Positions 17,389-49,958 of a stretch of 64,000 nucleotides of DNA are shown here, piece after piece. Each line of letters starts with the position of its first letter. The first letter of the stretch is position 1. The stretch is from Halobacterium litoreum (GTDB lineage Archaea > Halobacteriota > Halobacteria > Halobacteriales > Halobacteriaceae). The notes beneath the pieces are model-generated. The model made no database searches and was not told where the DNA came from. It saw only the letters and a program-made list of their open reading frames with translations. A program made the translations under genes and the position numbers. Location: assembly GCF_021233415.1 (NCBI RefSeq), contig NZ_CP089466.1, positions 1,054,001 through 1,118,000 on the forward strand, written 5' to 3'.

Positions 17389-17512
17389 TTCATCACCTCG
17401 GCCGGTCGCGCTATCTCGCCTGCCCCTCGTCGCGAGGGGGTCGTCGCCCACGGCTAATCACGGCGTGCAGTCAGCCGATATCGCCACTCGTCGCCACAAA
17501 CCGGACCGTGTA

Positions 17513-17566
17513 AAATAGGTAGAATAGTTAGAATAGGTAAAATAGTGGGGGTAGTTGGTTCAGTTG
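17513..17566 (+). repeat. Left array of 9-bp direct repeats (consensus GAATAGGTA)
   Basis: Four clear consecutive 9-base units occupy 17513-17548, with consensus RAATAGKTA; two weaker units continue in the same phase to 17566. The block is strongly A+T-rich in a G+C-rich chromosome and lies about 40 bases before the aspartoacylase-family gene. The same unit occurs inverted at 20745-20789 and inside the segment, so it behaves like an iteron or protein-binding array rather than chance low-complexity DNA. Confidence 0.8.
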
Positions 17567-17606
17567 GGCTGTTCGAAATATCTGCCTGCACACCGAACGT
17601 TCCGAC

Positions 17607-18638
17607 ATGAGCGTCGACGCATTCACCTACGACGGCGGGCGCGTGGAATCCGGCGAAACCCAACGCATCCGGTACACCGTCAGCGAGACGTACCTCGGCG
17701 ACCCGATTCGCATCCCCGTCACCGTCGTCAACGGCGACGACCCCGGACCGACCGTGTTCCTCTCGGCCGCCGCCCACGGCGACGAACTGAACGGCATCGC
17801 CGTCGTCCGCGAAGTCGCCCGCGAGTGGGACCACGGCGACGTCCGCGGCACGCTCGTCTGCCTGCCCGTCCTGAACGTGCAGGGATTCCTCACCCAGCAA
17901 CGCTACCTCCCCGTCTACGACCGCGACCTCAACCGCTCGTTTCCGGGGAATCGCCGCGGCACGAGCGCGCGACGCGTCGCCGCCGCCATCTTCGAGAACT
18001 TCGTCCGGCCCTGTGACCTCGGCCTCGACTTCCACACGTCGACGCGCGGCCGCACCAACATGCTCCACGTCCGCGCCGACATGGACGACGACCCGACAGC
18101 GCGCCTCGCGCAAGCGTTCGGTGCGAGCGTCGTCGTCGCCGGCGCCGGCGAACCCGGAATGCTCCGCCGCGAAGCCACCGAACGCGGCGTTCCCACCGTC
18201 ACTGTCGAACTCGGCGAAGCGCACCGATTCGAACGTGCGCTCATCGACCGCGCGCTCGACGGCGTTCGCAGCGTGTTCGCGGAGTACGGCGTCTTCCCCC
18301 AGGAGACCGTCCGCTGGCCGGGCTGGCGGACGGTCATCCGGTCGGCCGACGAGAAGACGTGGCTGCGCGCCGACGTCGGCGGCATCGCCGAGATGCAATG
18401 CGAGCGCGGCGACCTCGTCTACGAGGGCGACGCCGTCTGTGCTATCACTAACCCATTCCGGGACGACGTGGCGACCGTGACCGCGCCGTTCACCGGCCTG
18501 CTCGTCGGTTCGCTCGAGAACCCCGTCGTCTACCCCGGAAACCCGCTCTGTCACCTCGTCGAACTCGACGACCGGACGCGACGAGTCATCGAATCGCGCC
18601 GCGGACGTTCCCCGCCGGAGGAAGATTCTATATCGTAG
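17607..18638 (+). CDS. Succinylglutamate desuccinylase/aspartoacylase-family hydrolase
   Basis: A 343-residue zinc carboxypeptidase-fold enzyme. The zinc motif AAAHGDELNG gives His and Glu ligands, DLNRSFPG is the substrate-arginine region, and LDFHTSTRGR supplies the third ligand His. A C-terminal beta domain (residues about 235-325, with VYEGDAVCAITNPF and APFTGLLVG) resembles the lipoyl-like domain of this subfamily. It removes acyl groups from amino acids or peptides. It lies alone between 9-bp repeat arrays and shares no overlap with parA, so a functional link to partition is not implied. Confidence 0.85.
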   Translation: MSVDAFTYDGGRVESGETQRIRYTVSETYLGDPIRIPVTVVNGDDPGPTVFLSAAAHGDELNGIAVVREVAREWDHGDVRGTLVCLPVLNVQGFLTQQRYLPVYDRDLNRSFPGNRRGTSARRVAAAIFENFVRPCDLGLDFHTSTRGRTNMLHVRADMDDDPTARLAQAFGASVVVAGAGEPGMLRREATERGVPTVTVELGEAHRFERALIDRALDGVRSVFAEYGVFPQETVRWPGWRTVIRSADEKTWLRADVGGIAEMQCERGDLVYEGDAVCAITNPFRDDVATVTAPFTGLLVGSLENPVVYPGNPLCHLVELDDRTRRVIESRRGRSPPEEDSIS

Positions 18639-18646
18639 AATAGAAT
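18625..18646. repeat. Inverted repeat ATTCTA-N5-TAGAAT overlapping the gene end
   Basis: Six-base perfect arms (18625-18630 and 18636-18641) straddle the TAG stop of the aspartoacylase gene, and GAATAGAAT (18638-18646) resembles the 9-bp unit of the flanking arrays. It may be an isolated member of the same family of sites. Confidence 0.4.
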
Positions 18647-18668
18647 TTATAACCTACCGCCTTCGGGG

Positions 18669-18685
18669 GCGTCAATTCTTGACGC
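18669..18685 (+). terminator. Perfect hairpin GCGTCAA-TTC-TTGACGC
   Basis: A seven-base-pair perfect stem with a three-base loop lies 31 bases after the aspartoacylase stop. It is not followed by a clear T tract. It may end or stabilise the transcript, or be an operator. Confidence 0.4.
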
Positions 18686-19229
18686 TCGTATCAGCGCGAA
18701 CGCGCACAACGCGACTCGACAGTCGGCGCGACGCGAACGCTGATTCGTCAGCAGGAACGTTCGTCAGTAGGGACGTGGCTGTTCGCGCGGCCGCGCGAGC
18801 ACCCACACGACGAACTGTCGCTACTACTGTTGGCGGCGTCTGGAGCCGACGACACTCGTTCGCCGTCGCTGCGGCGTCGGTCGGGAGACTCCAGCAACGC
18901 TTACGGCTCACACCCTCGAATTCTCTCGGCTCGGCCCGCTCAACCCTCGCGGGCAACCCGACGTTTCGCTCGAAACGCAGTTCATAAACTCCATGTCGAG
19001 ATACACAAGCCGGTGATTTCCGAACGGTGATGCTACTGCCCGTAGCGGTGCGAACGCGTCGGTGTAGGCGAACACAGCGTCAGTGGGGCTGCCGGTGTCG
19101 AACGACTCTCGAACGCGGGTCTGTCCGGGGGGAAGTCGCCGCTCACTGCGCGCTCTCGCGTTCGGGTAGGCAATCGGCTCGCTGATTCGCGAGTGATTCT
19201 GTGGCCGGCGACACACGCCTCCCAAAATA

Positions 19230-19312
19230 GAATAGGTAGTTAAGGTACCTATCGCAACTTGCTCGCTTGTTTCACGTAAGCCACCTACTTTAGCCACCTC
19301 TCGTACCTATTC
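19230..19312. repeat. Internal cluster of 9-bp motif copies upstream of parA
   Basis: GAATAGGTA at 19230-19238 is followed in phase by GTTAAGGTA (19239-19247), which overlaps an inverted TACCTATCG (19246-19254) to make a GGTACC-centred dyad. Further copies in the opposite orientation are CACGTAAGC and CACCTACTT (19273-19290) and a perfect TACCTATTC at 19304-19312. The cluster lies 100-180 bases upstream of parA. Confidence 0.7.
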
Positions 19313-19317
19313 CCGGT

Positions 19318-19325
19318 GTTTTATC
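19318..19325 (+). promoter_or_regulatory. TATA-like element of the parA operon
   Basis: GTTTTATC directly follows the TACCTATTC copy at 19304-19312. Initiation would fall near 19348, leaving a leader of about 65 bases that contains the dyad at 19381-19398. Confidence 0.4.
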
Positions 19326-19380
19326 TACGACGACGCGGAACTGCCGCCTGACTCAGCGAAGGTGCCCGCCCACCGATTGT

Positions 19381-19398
19381 GAGATAGGCACCTATCTC
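19381..19398. promoter_or_regulatory. Perfect dyad GAGATAGG-CA-CCTATCTC before parA
   Basis: Eight-base perfect arms with a two-base spacer end 14 bases before the parA ATG. The arms contain ATAGG/CCTAT, the core of the 9-bp repeat, so the same DNA-binding protein may bind here. The position suits autorepression of the parA operon, or an mRNA hairpin that limits translation. Confidence 0.6.
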
Positions 19399-19412
19399 TG
19401 ACGAGGGACACA

Positions 19413-20285
19413 ATGCAAACGGAACCACGCGCTGTCAGCGTCGGCATCCTGAAGGGAGGTTTCGCGAAGACGACCACCGCACTCAACCTCGGGCGCGAAC
19501 TCGCCCACCGGAACGGCCGCGCGCTCGTCGTCGACCTCGACGACAACGGCCACATGACGCTCAATCTCGGGTTCGAGGACGAGTACAACGCCGGCGAGGA
19601 CGGCGACAACCACGCCGAAGCCGTGCTCATCGACCGCGAGGACCCGCGAGAGTACATCGTGAACGTCACCGAAGGGCTCGATTTGTTCCCCGCACACGAG
19701 AACCTCGAGAGCGTCCAGTCCGCGCTCAAGGAGGCGACGATGGGGACGACGCGCCTGAAAGAGGATCTCGTCGACCCCCTCCTCGGCGAGGAGTACGACT
19801 ACGTCGTCGTCGACTGCCCGGCGAACCGCGGGAAACTCAACGACAACGCGATGTACGCCACGGGGAATCTCGTCATTCCGCTGCGGCCGGAGAACGGCTA
19901 CGAAACGGGGTTGACGAACACCCTGAACCGACTCGTGAAGGAGGCTCGCGAGTACTTCGAGTTGGACATCCTCGCCATCGTCCCCTCGGACCTCCGGAAG
20001 CGCATCGACCAGCAGACGCGGGACCGCGAACTCCTCCGAGAGATTACGACCCGGGACGCCATCGACCACCTCGTCCCGAACTTCGCGTACCTCTCCGCGG
20101 ACGACTGGGACGCCATCGACGACGGCGACTACGACGGCGACCTGCCGGGCATCCGGTATCGCGCCGCCATCGACGAAGCCCACCAGGAGGGCGTGCCGCT
20201 CCGGGACTTCGACGACGAGTGCGACCAACTCGACGCGTACGACGAACTCGCTCGCGTCGTCGAGCGCGGGGAGGTGGTGCGGTAA
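19413..20285 (+). CDS. parA: ParA/Soj-family partition ATPase
   Basis: A 290-residue ParA-family ATPase. The deviant Walker A is KGGFAKTTTALNLG (KGGxxKT, starting near residue 14), the Walker A' region is VVDLDDNGHMTLNLGF and Walker B is YVVVDCPANRG. It has no N-terminal HTH, so unlike plasmid P1-type ParA it probably does not bind operator DNA specifically. Such ATPases position DNA or protein cargo using a partner that stimulates hydrolysis. It overlaps the next gene by one base (TAATG), and the operon is surrounded by 9-bp repeats. Chromosomal or integrated-plasmid origin is undecided. Confidence 0.9.
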   Translation: MQTEPRAVSVGILKGGFAKTTTALNLGRELAHRNGRALVVDLDDNGHMTLNLGFEDEYNAGEDGDNHAEAVLIDREDPREYIVNVTEGLDLFPAHENLESVQSALKEATMGTTRLKEDLVDPLLGEEYDYVVVDCPANRGKLNDNAMYATGNLVIPLRPENGYETGLTNTLNRLVKEAREYFELDILAIVPSDLRKRIDQQTRDRELLREITTRDAIDHLVPNFAYLSADDWDAIDDGDYDGDLPGIRYRAAIDEAHQEGVPLRDFDDECDQLDAYDELARVVERGEVVR

Positions 20286-20659
20286 TGGGGTTCGACGACC
20301 TCGAAGCCGCCGAGCGAGAGCACAACGCCGACGACGAGTCGGGGGAGGCGACCGAGCAGTCCTCAGCGGAGGCCGCGACTGAGACGCCGACTGACGCCGA
20401 ATCTGGTGCGAGCGACGAGGCGTCCGCCGAGCAGCCCGGATTCGAGTTCGACGACGTGAAGCAGTCGCCGATGTACGCGCGCCCCGAGGCGTGGGCCGAA
20501 CTCGAGGACGCCCTCGACCTCGAAGTCGTCCGCGAACTCCGCGAGACGGGCATCCGGAACGAGGCGAAACGCGAACTCCACGACGCCGTCCTCCGCGTCG
20601 CGGCGCGTCACCCCGCGGAGATTGCCGACGCGGTCCGCGACGCCCGCCGGGACGACTGA
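20285..20659 (+). CDS. Small ParA-partner protein, probable site-binding adaptor
   Basis: A 124-residue protein whose ATG overlaps the parA stop (TAATG). Residues 1-55 are acidic and disordered (Glu, Ala, Asp, Ser, Thr). Residues about 56-124 form a helical domain with FEFDDVKQSPMYARPEAW, a tract WAELEDALDLEVVRELRETG and RNEAKRELHDAVLRVAA. I recall similar proteins beside ParA on haloarchaeal plasmids. It is not a ParB: there is no ParB box or KorB HTH. By position it is the likely activator of ParA and binder of the 9-bp repeats (inference). Confidence 0.7.
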   Translation: MGFDDLEAAEREHNADDESGEATEQSSAEAATETPTDAESGASDEASAEQPGFEFDDVKQSPMYARPEAWAELEDALDLEVVRELRETGIRNEAKRELHDAVLRVAARHPAEIADAVRDARRDD

Positions 20660-20744
20660 CTGCTCGGGCCCGAATCTGTCGTTTTGCGCGCTCACAACCC
20701 AGAGTAGTGACCTGTCTCAAGATGTGTGGGATTTCTGGGAGAGT

Positions 20745-20789
20745 TGCTTATTCTACCTATTCTACCTGCCTTACCTATTCTATCTATCT
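20745..20789 (-). repeat. Right array of 9-bp direct repeats (consensus TACCTATTC, inverted to the left array)
   Basis: Five consecutive 9-base units fill 20745-20789. Two are perfect TACCTATTC (20754-20762 and 20772-20780) and the others are one- to four-base variants. The orientation is opposite to that of the array at 17513-17566. It lies 86 bases after the ParA-partner gene and 95 bases before the SDR gene. Confidence 0.8.
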
Positions 20790-20883
20790 CCGGTGATTCG
20801 AACAATCTCGTGGCGGCGTGGCGCTGGCTCGACCCCGGAAACAGTTACGTCGCGACCGCACCACTAGTCGGTTGACGCGAACA

Positions 20884-21675
20884 ATGGACCTCGGACTCGA
20901 AGGGAACGCGGCGCTCGTCGCCGCATCGAGCAGTGGACTCGGGAAGGCCGCCGCGACGGCGCTCGCCCGCGAGGGCGCGAACGTCGTGGTCAACGGCCGG
21001 GACGAACAGCGACTGGACGACGCCGTGGCGGAGATTCGCGAAGTCGGTGGCGGCGACGTGGTCGGCGTGTCCGCCGACCTCACCGACCCGGACGCGGCGG
21101 AGACGCTCGTCGAGCGCACCGTCGAGGAGTTCGGCGGCCTCGACCACCTCGTGACGAACGCGGGCGGCCCGCCGAGCAAGTCGTTCGCGGAGACCACCGA
21201 GCGCGAGTGGTACGAAGCCTACGACCTGCTCGTGATGAGCGTCGTGCGCCTCGTGCGCGAGGCGACCGAGCACTTGCAGGCGGATGGCGGCGGGAGCGTC
21301 GTCACGTCCACGTCCCGGAGCGTGAAGGAGGCGCTCGACGACCTCGTGCTCTCGAACTCCGTCCGGATGAGCGTCGTCGGCCTGGAGAAGACGCTCTCCC
21401 GGGAACTCGCCCCCGAGGTGCGCGTGAACGCGGTGCTGCCGGGCGCCCACCGCACGGAGCGCCTGGAGTATCTCGTGCAGAACGCGGTCGACAGGGGCGA
21501 GTACGACACCTACGAGGCGAGTCTGGCGTCGTGGACCGACGACATCCCGGTCGGTGACCTCGGCGACCCCGAGGAGTTCGGGAACCTGGTGGCGTTCCTG
21601 CTCTCGGAGCGCGCGAGTTTCGTGAACGGCGAGGCGGTGACCGTCGACGGCGGGAGCGGGCGCTCGAACCTCTAA
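20884..21675 (+). CDS. SDR-family protein with atypical active site
   Basis: A 263-residue Rossmann-fold short-chain dehydrogenase/reductase-like protein with the cofactor loop ASSSGLGKA and LVTNAGG. The canonical catalytic YxxxK is not present: the aligned stretch reads SNSVRMSVVGLEKTLSREL, as in an SDR branch with SNxxR in place of Tyr-Lys. Activity as an oxidoreductase is therefore uncertain. The C-terminal GEAVTVDGGSG is typical. ATG 20884 was chosen; the earlier in-frame codons run into the intergenic region. It is followed by the large flavin/Fe-S dehydrogenase 40 bases downstream. Confidence 0.8.
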   Translation: MDLGLEGNAALVAASSSGLGKAAATALAREGANVVVNGRDEQRLDDAVAEIREVGGGDVVGVSADLTDPDAAETLVERTVEEFGGLDHLVTNAGGPPSKSFAETTEREWYEAYDLLVMSVVRLVREATEHLQADGGGSVVTSTSRSVKEALDDLVLSNSVRMSVVGLEKTLSRELAPEVRVNAVLPGAHRTERLEYLVQNAVDRGEYDTYEASLASWTDDIPVGDLGDPEEFGNLVAFLLSERASFVNGEAVTVDGGSGRSNL

Positions 21676-40903: not shown

Positions 40904-41827
40904 ATGGGGCCTCGACTCTCGACACGCCGCGACGTCCTGAGAGCGGGCAGCGCCCTCGCCGCCGCGGGCGCCGCAGGCTGTATCGGCGCCGGACCGCCGA
41001 TTCCCGGCAGCGATACCGGCGCCTCGTACCCCGCGTGGATACCCCGACCTCGGGCCATCGACGAGGACACGCACGGATGGTTCCGGTACGCCCGACCGTC
41101 GGATATCGCCGCCTACGCGGCGGAACTCGAAGAATCGTACACCAGACTGCGGACGCTACTCCCCGTCGAAGACACGCGACTGGGCCTCGACTTCCACGAC
41201 CCGGACGAGTTCATCGGCTTCGGTGGCGCGTACAACCTCGTCCTGACAGGGGCTTTCGATACCGCCGAAATCGCCACTCGCGTCGGCGCCAACGGATTCT
41301 CCACGCACACCACCCACCGCGGCTATCAGATTTACGAGCGCGACCCGACGAACGCACTTGGCGTCACCGACGACACGATCGTCGTCGGCCGAGCCGGCGG
41401 CGTGCTGGACGCGACCAACGTCGTCACGCAGATTCTCGACACCGGACACAGCGGCGACTCCCGGTACGTCGACAGCGACGAGTCGTTCGCGACGCTCACG
41501 TCCCGGCTCGGCGACGCCCACTTCGCACTCGGTCGTCGCTTCGCGGAACGCACCGAAACCGACCTCCGCGACGGACGGTTCGCCGGGGCCGTGGCCAGCG
41601 GATTCCGCTACGAATTCGGCGAGGACACCACGCGCGGACTGTCAGTGACAGTCTTCGAGAACGCCGCCGACATCGACGTGGACGACGTCGAGGCGTACCT
41701 CGAATACAACGAGGACAGCGGCGACTTCAGCGACGCCGACGACCTCTCCGCCTACCGCGAGGGACGAACCGCGAACGTCGAGTGGTCCGTGGACACGGAA
41801 GCGGCGTTCCGGACAGAGAACCAGTGA
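40904..41827 (+). CDS. Tat lipoprotein of unknown function
   Basis: A 307-residue secreted protein. It begins with a Tat signal (STRRDVLRAGSALAA) and a lipobox AAGC with Cys26, so it should be lipid-anchored outside the cell. The mature part is soluble, mixed alpha/beta, with SDIAAYAAELEESYTRL and ANVEWSVDTEAAF near the end. I do not recognise the family. ATG 40904 gives the correct Tat spacing; the frame extends upstream to 40847 through the promoter and was rejected. It is followed 11 bases later by a membrane protein gene. Confidence 0.7.
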   Translation: MGPRLSTRRDVLRAGSALAAAGAAGCIGAGPPIPGSDTGASYPAWIPRPRAIDEDTHGWFRYARPSDIAAYAAELEESYTRLRTLLPVEDTRLGLDFHDPDEFIGFGGAYNLVLTGAFDTAEIATRVGANGFSTHTTHRGYQIYERDPTNALGVTDDTIVVGRAGGVLDATNVVTQILDTGHSGDSRYVDSDESFATLTSRLGDAHFALGRRFAERTETDLRDGRFAGAVASGFRYEFGEDTTRGLSVTVFENAADIDVDDVEAYLEYNEDSGDFSDADDLSAYREGRTANVEWSVDTEAAFRTENQ

Positions 41828-49783: not shown

Positions 49784-49824
49784 GGTCGCGGCCCGCTCTA
49801 CGGCGCACTTCGCTCAGTCGTCGC

Positions 49825-49914
49825 GGTTCGCTGGCTTCGCGGTTCGCTGGCTTCGCGGTTCGCTGGCTTCGCGGTTCGCTGGCTTCGCGGTTCGCTGGCT
49901 TCGCGGTTCGCTGG
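49825..49914. repeat. Tandem 16-bp repeat, about 5.6 copies
   Basis: The unit GGTTCGCTGGCTTCGC repeats at 49825, 49841, 49857, 49873, 49889 and 49905 with no mismatch in the first five. Because 16 is not a multiple of three, and no coding frame is supported, it is a non-coding minisatellite-like array. It ends 45 bases before the photolyase stop. Confidence 0.85.
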
Positions 49915-49958
49915 CGCTCACCGCTCAGCAGTTCCGAGGGCCGACTCCTTCCCTGTGG

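Follow-up and report, generated by a model that had tools for sequence, protein, structure and literature searches.

A candidate DNA-partition module with a 9-bp iteron array on the Halobacterium litoreum chromosome and its relatives on haloarchaeal megaplasmids

We analysed a 64-kb window of the 2.70-Mb chromosome of Halobacterium litoreum (G000:C1:1054001-1118000) that contains parA, a gene for a ParA-type ATPase, together with a small partner gene overlapping its end and several arrays of 9-base-pair (bp) units. Sequence comparison makes it likely that this locus is a compact, plasmid-derived DNA-partition module made up of ParA, the partner and a 9-bp iteron centromere. The arrays are linked to parA and the partner gene, the iteron sequence covaries with the partner, the cassette descends from plasmid ParAs and it is under purifying selection; DNA binding, contact with ParA, partition and autoregulation are what we infer for it. 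The same layout, with repeats specific to each replicon, is found on many haloarchaeal megaplasmids and is probably an unrecognised centromere system that distributes copies of these replicons to daughter cells.

The parA cassette and its arrays

The features of the locus are as follows.

about 19225..19316, no strand: central 9-bp iteron array upstream of parA, the primary candidate centromere; it ends in the invariant TACCTATTCCCG
19413..20285, forward strand: parA, encoding a 290-residue Soj/ParA-type deviant Walker A ATPase (PF13614, 1.5e-28; Soj/ParA structures)
20285..20659, forward strand: partner gene for a 124-residue predicted centromere-binding adaptor, overlapping the parA stop codon as TAATG
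19317..19340, forward strand: conserved TTTTAT (TATA-like) element directly 3' of the central array, a candidate parA-operon promoter, its role judged by eye
19382..19396, no strand: conserved pseudo-palindrome GATAGGCACCTATC just 5' of the parA start, a possible operator
17507..17566, forward strand: outer array 1, made of six 9-bp units in front of astE (ATG at 17607)
20745..20795, reverse strand: outer array 2, five inverted 9-bp units downstream of the partner gene and ahead of the SDR gene (20884)
17607..18638, forward strand: astE, of the AstE/AspA family (succinylglutamate desuccinylase/aspartoacylase; PF24827)
20884..21675, forward strand: gene for a short-chain dehydrogenase/reductase (SDR)-family oxidoreductase, a neighbour outside the cassette

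All three 9-bp-phased arrays lie inside one 3.3-kb locus, and the rest of the 64 kb holds none. With up to one mismatch allowed, the unit GAATAGGTA matched ten times in the window against 1.29 expected, a count reached in none of 100 shuffles; across the 2.7-Mb genome, five of its six exact copies are at the parA locus. Scanning for phased arrays of four TASSTA units with a score of at least 19 gave three clusters in the 64 kb, every one at the parA locus; first-order Markov resampling of the window (200 replicates) gave none, and resampling of composition-matched intergenic sequence gave 0.002 per replicate. Taken together, the counts in the window, the genome and the resampled windows exclude a chance origin of the arrays. 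A lone GAATAGGTA (TACCTATTC) was seen at G000:C1:2545223 (L044:5224), between an Orc1 gene and origin recognition box-like repeats in a probable oriC region; it is a single copy with no array, and perhaps arose by chance.

The array next to parA is conserved within the genus. Six other Halobacterium genomes have parA (85-88% identical) and the partner (54-66%). The flanking genes vary among them; about 200 bp upstream of parA can be aligned in all seven, and this block contains the 9-bp-phased array, the invariant TACCTATTCCCG, the nearly invariant TTTTAT box and the GATAGGTGCCTATC pseudo-palindrome before the start codon. A CAATAGGTRCCTAYTG-like sequence occupies the matching pseudo-palindrome position in Natrialbaceae plasmids. 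A lack of co-occurrence between the arrays and parA in relatives had been named beforehand as an outcome that would refute the initial annotation, which suggested that the 9-bp arrays may be the centromere-like sites of a compact ParA system whose adaptor is new. The suggestion survived this test: of 13 Halobacterium genomes, the seven that encode this ParA (at least 86% identity) all contained the pattern TASCTA-N3-TASCTA-N3-TASCTA, and the other six lacked it. In the H. litoreum genome every match to this triple pattern falls within the parA locus, and the three-unit scan for dispersed chromosomal array sites found none outside it. A looser three-unit pattern gave remote matches in G004, G008 and G009 that were not above the control rate and were not used as evidence.

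The initial annotation also described a tandem array at 17513-17566 and an inverted one at 20745-20789 with extra copies upstream of parA, an aspartoacylase gene, a 774-base gap, parA and an overlapping small partner, and all of these are present. The units of outer array 1 at 17513-17566 are, in order, AAATAGGTA, GAATAGTTA, GAATAGGTA, AAATAGTGG, GGGTAGTTG and GTTCAGTTG, and those of outer array 2 at 20745-20795 are TGCTTATTC, TACCTATTC, TACCTGCCT, TACCTATTC and TATCTATCT; the best match between the two is an inverted repeat of 34 nt (79%). Both sit in front of neighbouring genes, astE and the SDR gene, and occur only in the H. litoreum genome. The description of a bracketed cassette thus holds here but not at equivalent positions in relatives, in which the conserved array is the one directly upstream of parA, and we rejected the outer arrays as a defining feature.

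The product of parA carries the deviant Walker A motif KGGFAKT, in keeping with the KGGxxK[ST] hallmark of type I ParA/Soj proteins, and has no N-terminal helix-turn-helix (HTH) extension, its alignment to Soj-type chains beginning at about residue 6, as in type Ib-like systems (ParF-ParG, delta-omega). The P-loop KGGFAKT was seen in all seven Halobacterium chromosomal ParAs, most plasmid relatives having KGGFGKT; outside those chromosomal copies it was found only in L052 among the checked loci. As expected of a type Ib-like arrangement, the partner gene lies directly downstream of parA, most loci showing an overlap of 1 to 11 bp, and its homologues follow parA both in Halobacterium and on haloarchaeal megaplasmids. 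In our alignment of the partner (A1), an N-terminal M-[GA]-F-D-D-L motif (MGFDDL here) is followed by a variable acidic linker and a conserved C-terminal domain at about residues 50-124 with the pattern PAFEY..Q...YxR...E...HDA... Searches of Pfam, NCBIfam and the PDB placed the partner in no family. Among matches of its members to PHROGs the best was phrog_26668 (function unknown; 2e-4, one plasmid member), with no other better than 1e-3, and no further partner or ParA sequences were found in viral contigs. A ribbon-helix-helix (RHH)-like strand-helix-helix in the partner is conceivable from its sequence.

Around the cassette, the gap between astE and parA is exactly 774 bases and contained no RNA gene that we could find. 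The astE gene has a paralogue, 70% identical, 30 kb away; it is an ordinary Halobacterium gene that lies outside the cassette in relatives, where the cassette adjoins neither astE nor the SDR gene. Elsewhere in the window, an intergenic stretch downstream of a photolyase-like gene (49821-49915) holds 5.9 copies of a perfect 16-bp tandem repeat, TCGCGGTTCGCTGGCT.

Megaplasmid relatives and the pairing of iteron with partner

The layout of parA, partner and array recurs on MEGAPLASMIDS. ParA relatives with 60-74% identity are encoded on megaplasmids of Haloarcula, Haladaptatus, Halorussus, Halobaculum, Halalkalicoccus and H. salinarum; in every case examined the next gene encodes a small 'hypothetical protein', and the modules are often close to orc1/cdc6. 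We compared periods of 5-15 in 31 parA-partner loci of 6.6-19 kb each, mostly from megaplasmids. The best period in the region upstream of parA was 9 in 28 of the 31, and in 24 of the 31 the 9-bp periodicity of the locus peaked within 400 bp upstream of parA. In a validation set fetched later via the partner gene, every one of the six loci that could be scored had a period-9 array; of the others, L087 was cut by the record start, L094 had no adjacent annotated ParA, and L093 had an annotated ParA of another type and a period-13 array. The co-occurrence of arrays with parA in relatives thus holds on plasmids too, where almost every homologous locus has a 9-bp array 5' of parA.

The 9-mer itself varies by locus. 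Besides TASCTANNN we found TCTACTGTG on pHS3 and its relatives, GATTCGTAC in L048, TTGTACAAT-like units in L050 and GAATAGYAT in L079 and L080, and others exist. Over 34 loci, the TASSTA score correlated with similarity in the C-terminal domain of the partner (Spearman 0.54, p=0.0009, a value that is optimistic because the loci are phylogenetically related), compared with 0.10 for ParA similarity. With ParA controlled, the partial correlation was 0.56, and 0 of 2000 permutations gave a higher value. Individual loci show the same reshuffling: L038, L041, L042, L089 and L092 have ParAs of just 33-36% identity, related partners (44-51%) and TASSTA iterons, whereas L050, L051 and L077 have ParAs of 70-71% identity, unlike partners and different iterons, and plasmids with 70% ParA and 30% partner identity carry the iteron TCTACTGTG. 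This reshuffling speaks for partner and iteron forming a single functional pair, and from the covariation the 124-residue partner is probably the protein that recognises the array and presents it to ParA. Five modules with five distinct iterons reside together in one cell (G004), as would be expected if every replicon needs its own identity. Along with the co-occurrence in Halobacterium, the pairing of iteron with partner supports the proposal of a ParA system with a new adaptor and centromere-like arrays.

Upstream of ParAs of other types, in L040, L081 and L093, the best repeat period was 13, which suggests a sister family of ParA systems that uses 13-bp repeats and a different adaptor. A second ParA-partner family was seen on large contigs at L037:8154-9343 and L039:8954-10161, beside a gene with a transcription factor B-like end; L039 bears a TGTACA-type 9-bp array. 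In two genomes of another Halobacteriaceae genus (G015 and G024), an array of the same 9-bp type precedes a CobW/G3E-type GTPase gene with no intact parA beside it (L097:6850-6950, L098:6790-6870), and L098 has a partial, degenerate copy of the partner (KRKLRDHGVKDVTDRELDDAIARTIP...) 1.6 kb from the array. These arrays make a regulatory role besides partition likely in some cases.

Ancestry, proposed mechanism and alternatives

In a midpoint-rooted tree, the seven Halobacterium chromosomal ParAs form one clade (97/94) within the plasmid ParAs, next to the H. salinarum plasmid type (93/91), and the simplest reading of this topology is a single plasmid-to-chromosome transfer of the cassette. The ratio of nonsynonymous to synonymous substitution rates, 0.05-0.23 for the cassette, indicates purifying selection, so the cassette is no decaying remnant. 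In five well-assembled Halobacterium genomes one high-scoring orc1 type recurs at 100-195 kb from the cassette; it was not found on the chromosomes of G010 and G001, which have no cassette. Its H. litoreum representative is at G000:C1:968100 (L085:8041-9264). This orc1 type is less than 50% identical to plasmid orc1, which leaves a joint origin with the cassette on a plasmid as no more than a possibility. Orthologues of astE and the SDR gene occupy, with orc1, the same chromosomal region in relatives, which argues that the cassette is stably resident. The initial annotation's suggestion of a plasmid origin was right in that the cassette descends from plasmid ParAs, but not in that the arrays are plasmid ends.

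By analogy with delta-omega/parS, we propose that partner molecules line up on the 9-bp iterons upstream of parA, each binding through its C-terminal domain. They would probably occupy both outer arrays as well, building a nucleoprotein stack that would act as the centromere. The disordered acidic N terminus with its MGFDDL motif would engage ParA-ATP bound to nucleoid DNA and trigger ATP hydrolysis, and cycles of ParA release would pull replicon copies apart. Binding near the parA promoter would be expected to autoregulate the operon, and the outer arrays would serve as additional loading sites or operators. On this model the plasmid module would have entered the Halobacterium chromosome once and been retained by selection.

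Several observations weigh against a partition module of this kind. AlphaFold models of the partner from three sequences (predicted local distance difference test scores of 58 and 69.5) gave a low-confidence helical C-terminal domain, and a Foldseek comparison of the low-confidence model with PDB folds found no match. No clear period-9 array was found in L037, L040 and L081, and L037, L039 and L040 have a related partner and no TASSTA iteron. Arrays exist with no intact parA nearby, and the relatedness of the loci tempers the covariation statistics. Haloarchaeal chromosomes are polyploid, which makes their need for active partition uncertain (PMC5120986).

If the arrays were purely transcriptional operators, the partner would be an autorepressor that also controls astE and the SDR gene, with no part in partition. 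The position of the central array against the parA promoter, the outer arrays upstream of those two genes and the comparable array before the CobW/G3E GTPase gene would all suit this. However, 6-10 contiguous iterons over nearly 100 bp go well beyond what an operator needs, replicon-specific iterons beside orc1 on megaplasmids suit partition, the cassette in relatives is not adjacent to astE or the SDR gene, and omega of pSM19035 combines regulation and partition on such arrays (PMC9499535); we regard a purely regulatory function as unlikely. A SegB-like organiser of the chromosome, acting at many scattered sites instead of at one local centromere, is somewhat further from what we expect. The outer arrays of H. 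litoreum and remote short arrays in G009, G004 and G008 (near the control rate) and in genus g4 speak for such an organiser, but the triple-unit matches of H. litoreum are confined to the locus and the remote matches to the looser pattern are few, whereas Sulfolobus SegB has 39 enrichment peaks (PMC12284271). We therefore hold dispersed sites to be quite improbable.

Many plasmid loci have orc1/cdc6 near parA, and H. litoreum has its single GAATAGGTA in the oriC-like region beside an Orc1 gene, as might be the case if the arrays were replication-origin iterons to which an initiator binds, with parA no more than a linked neighbour on plasmids. We consider this very unlikely, since the chromosomal arrays stay with parA at the distance from the nearest high-scoring orc1 of this type given above, the iteron type tracks the partner, and the oriC-region copy forms no array. 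Least favoured is a reading of the inverted arrays as the termini of a mobile element or, as the initial annotation suggested, of an integrated plasmid fragment. Although the outer arrays are mutually inverted and flank a cassette whose ParA is plasmid-derived, the key array is internal, the outer ones are genome-specific, relatives carry the cassette in the same chromosomal region without them, no integrase or transposase lies between the arrays, there is no compositional break, the neighbouring genes are regionally conserved and astE, though bracketed, is ordinary for Halobacterium, leaving this origin very improbable.

Related systems and significance

We suggest, by analogy, that the haloarchaeal module functions in the manner of type Ib-like par systems; its gene order resembles that of SegAB. 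It shares with delta-omega/parS of pSM19035 (small ParA plus RHH ParB, type Ib-like) a small HTH-less ParA, a small adaptor in place of ParB and more than one array of contiguous short repeats lying in either orientation at promoters. Omega activates ParA only when given at least four contiguous 7-bp repeats, and its arrays overlap promoters (PMC9499535). The repeats are 7 bp there and 9 bp here, the haloarchaeal system is archaeal, and its partner has a long acidic N-terminal linker and no detectable sequence relation to omega; the RHH fold belongs to omega, whereas the haloarchaeal partner is known by its sequence and a low-confidence helical model. SegAB of Sulfolobales is likewise an archaeal chromosomal ParA with an overlapping small partner gene downstream and candidate sites upstream of the operon, but SegB sites are 13-bp palindromes, TCTAGASTCTAGA, scattered over the chromosome. 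The window has one match to this palindrome, with three mismatches, at 40910, which is below chance, and a partner profile run against PDB sequences at E values up to 10 found no SegB and no other segregation protein.

The ParA ATPase is common to ParABS with its CTPase ParB; here, ParB's place is taken by a small partner unrelated to it, with an iteron array as the candidate site. As the initial annotation had noted, there is no ParB: TIGR00180 was absent from the H. litoreum genome (G000) and from G002, with controls detected. In the AspA-ParB-ParA system of pNOB8, an archaeal plasmid ParA also works with a non-ParB site-binding protein, which is predicted here, but that system has three proteins, not two, and we found no sequence relation. 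AspA binds a 23-bp palindrome (PMC5120986). Archaeal chromosomes have been reported to lack genuine ParABS (PMC12704722). The literature that we covered, subscription journals lying outside it, contained no characterised haloarchaeal par site and no description of the partner. The adaptor family, and with it a candidate class of 9-bp iteron centromere, thus appear to be new.

How haloarchaeal replicons, with polyploid chromosomes and several megaplasmids, are segregated has been listed as an open question (PMC5120986). The module is a concrete and widespread candidate, comprising a protein, a DNA site and a specificity code in which iteron and partner covary, with up to five modules per cell, and it can be tested in tractable laboratory haloarchaea. 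More tentatively, it may represent a haloarchaea-specific centromere class, defined by a contiguous 9-bp array and a novel adaptor family with the iteron as replicon identity, of which one module could have been domesticated in Halobacterium to segregate or organise the polyploid main chromosome. Such a module would supply markers that define incompatibility groups of megaplasmids and are of use in stable shuttle vectors.

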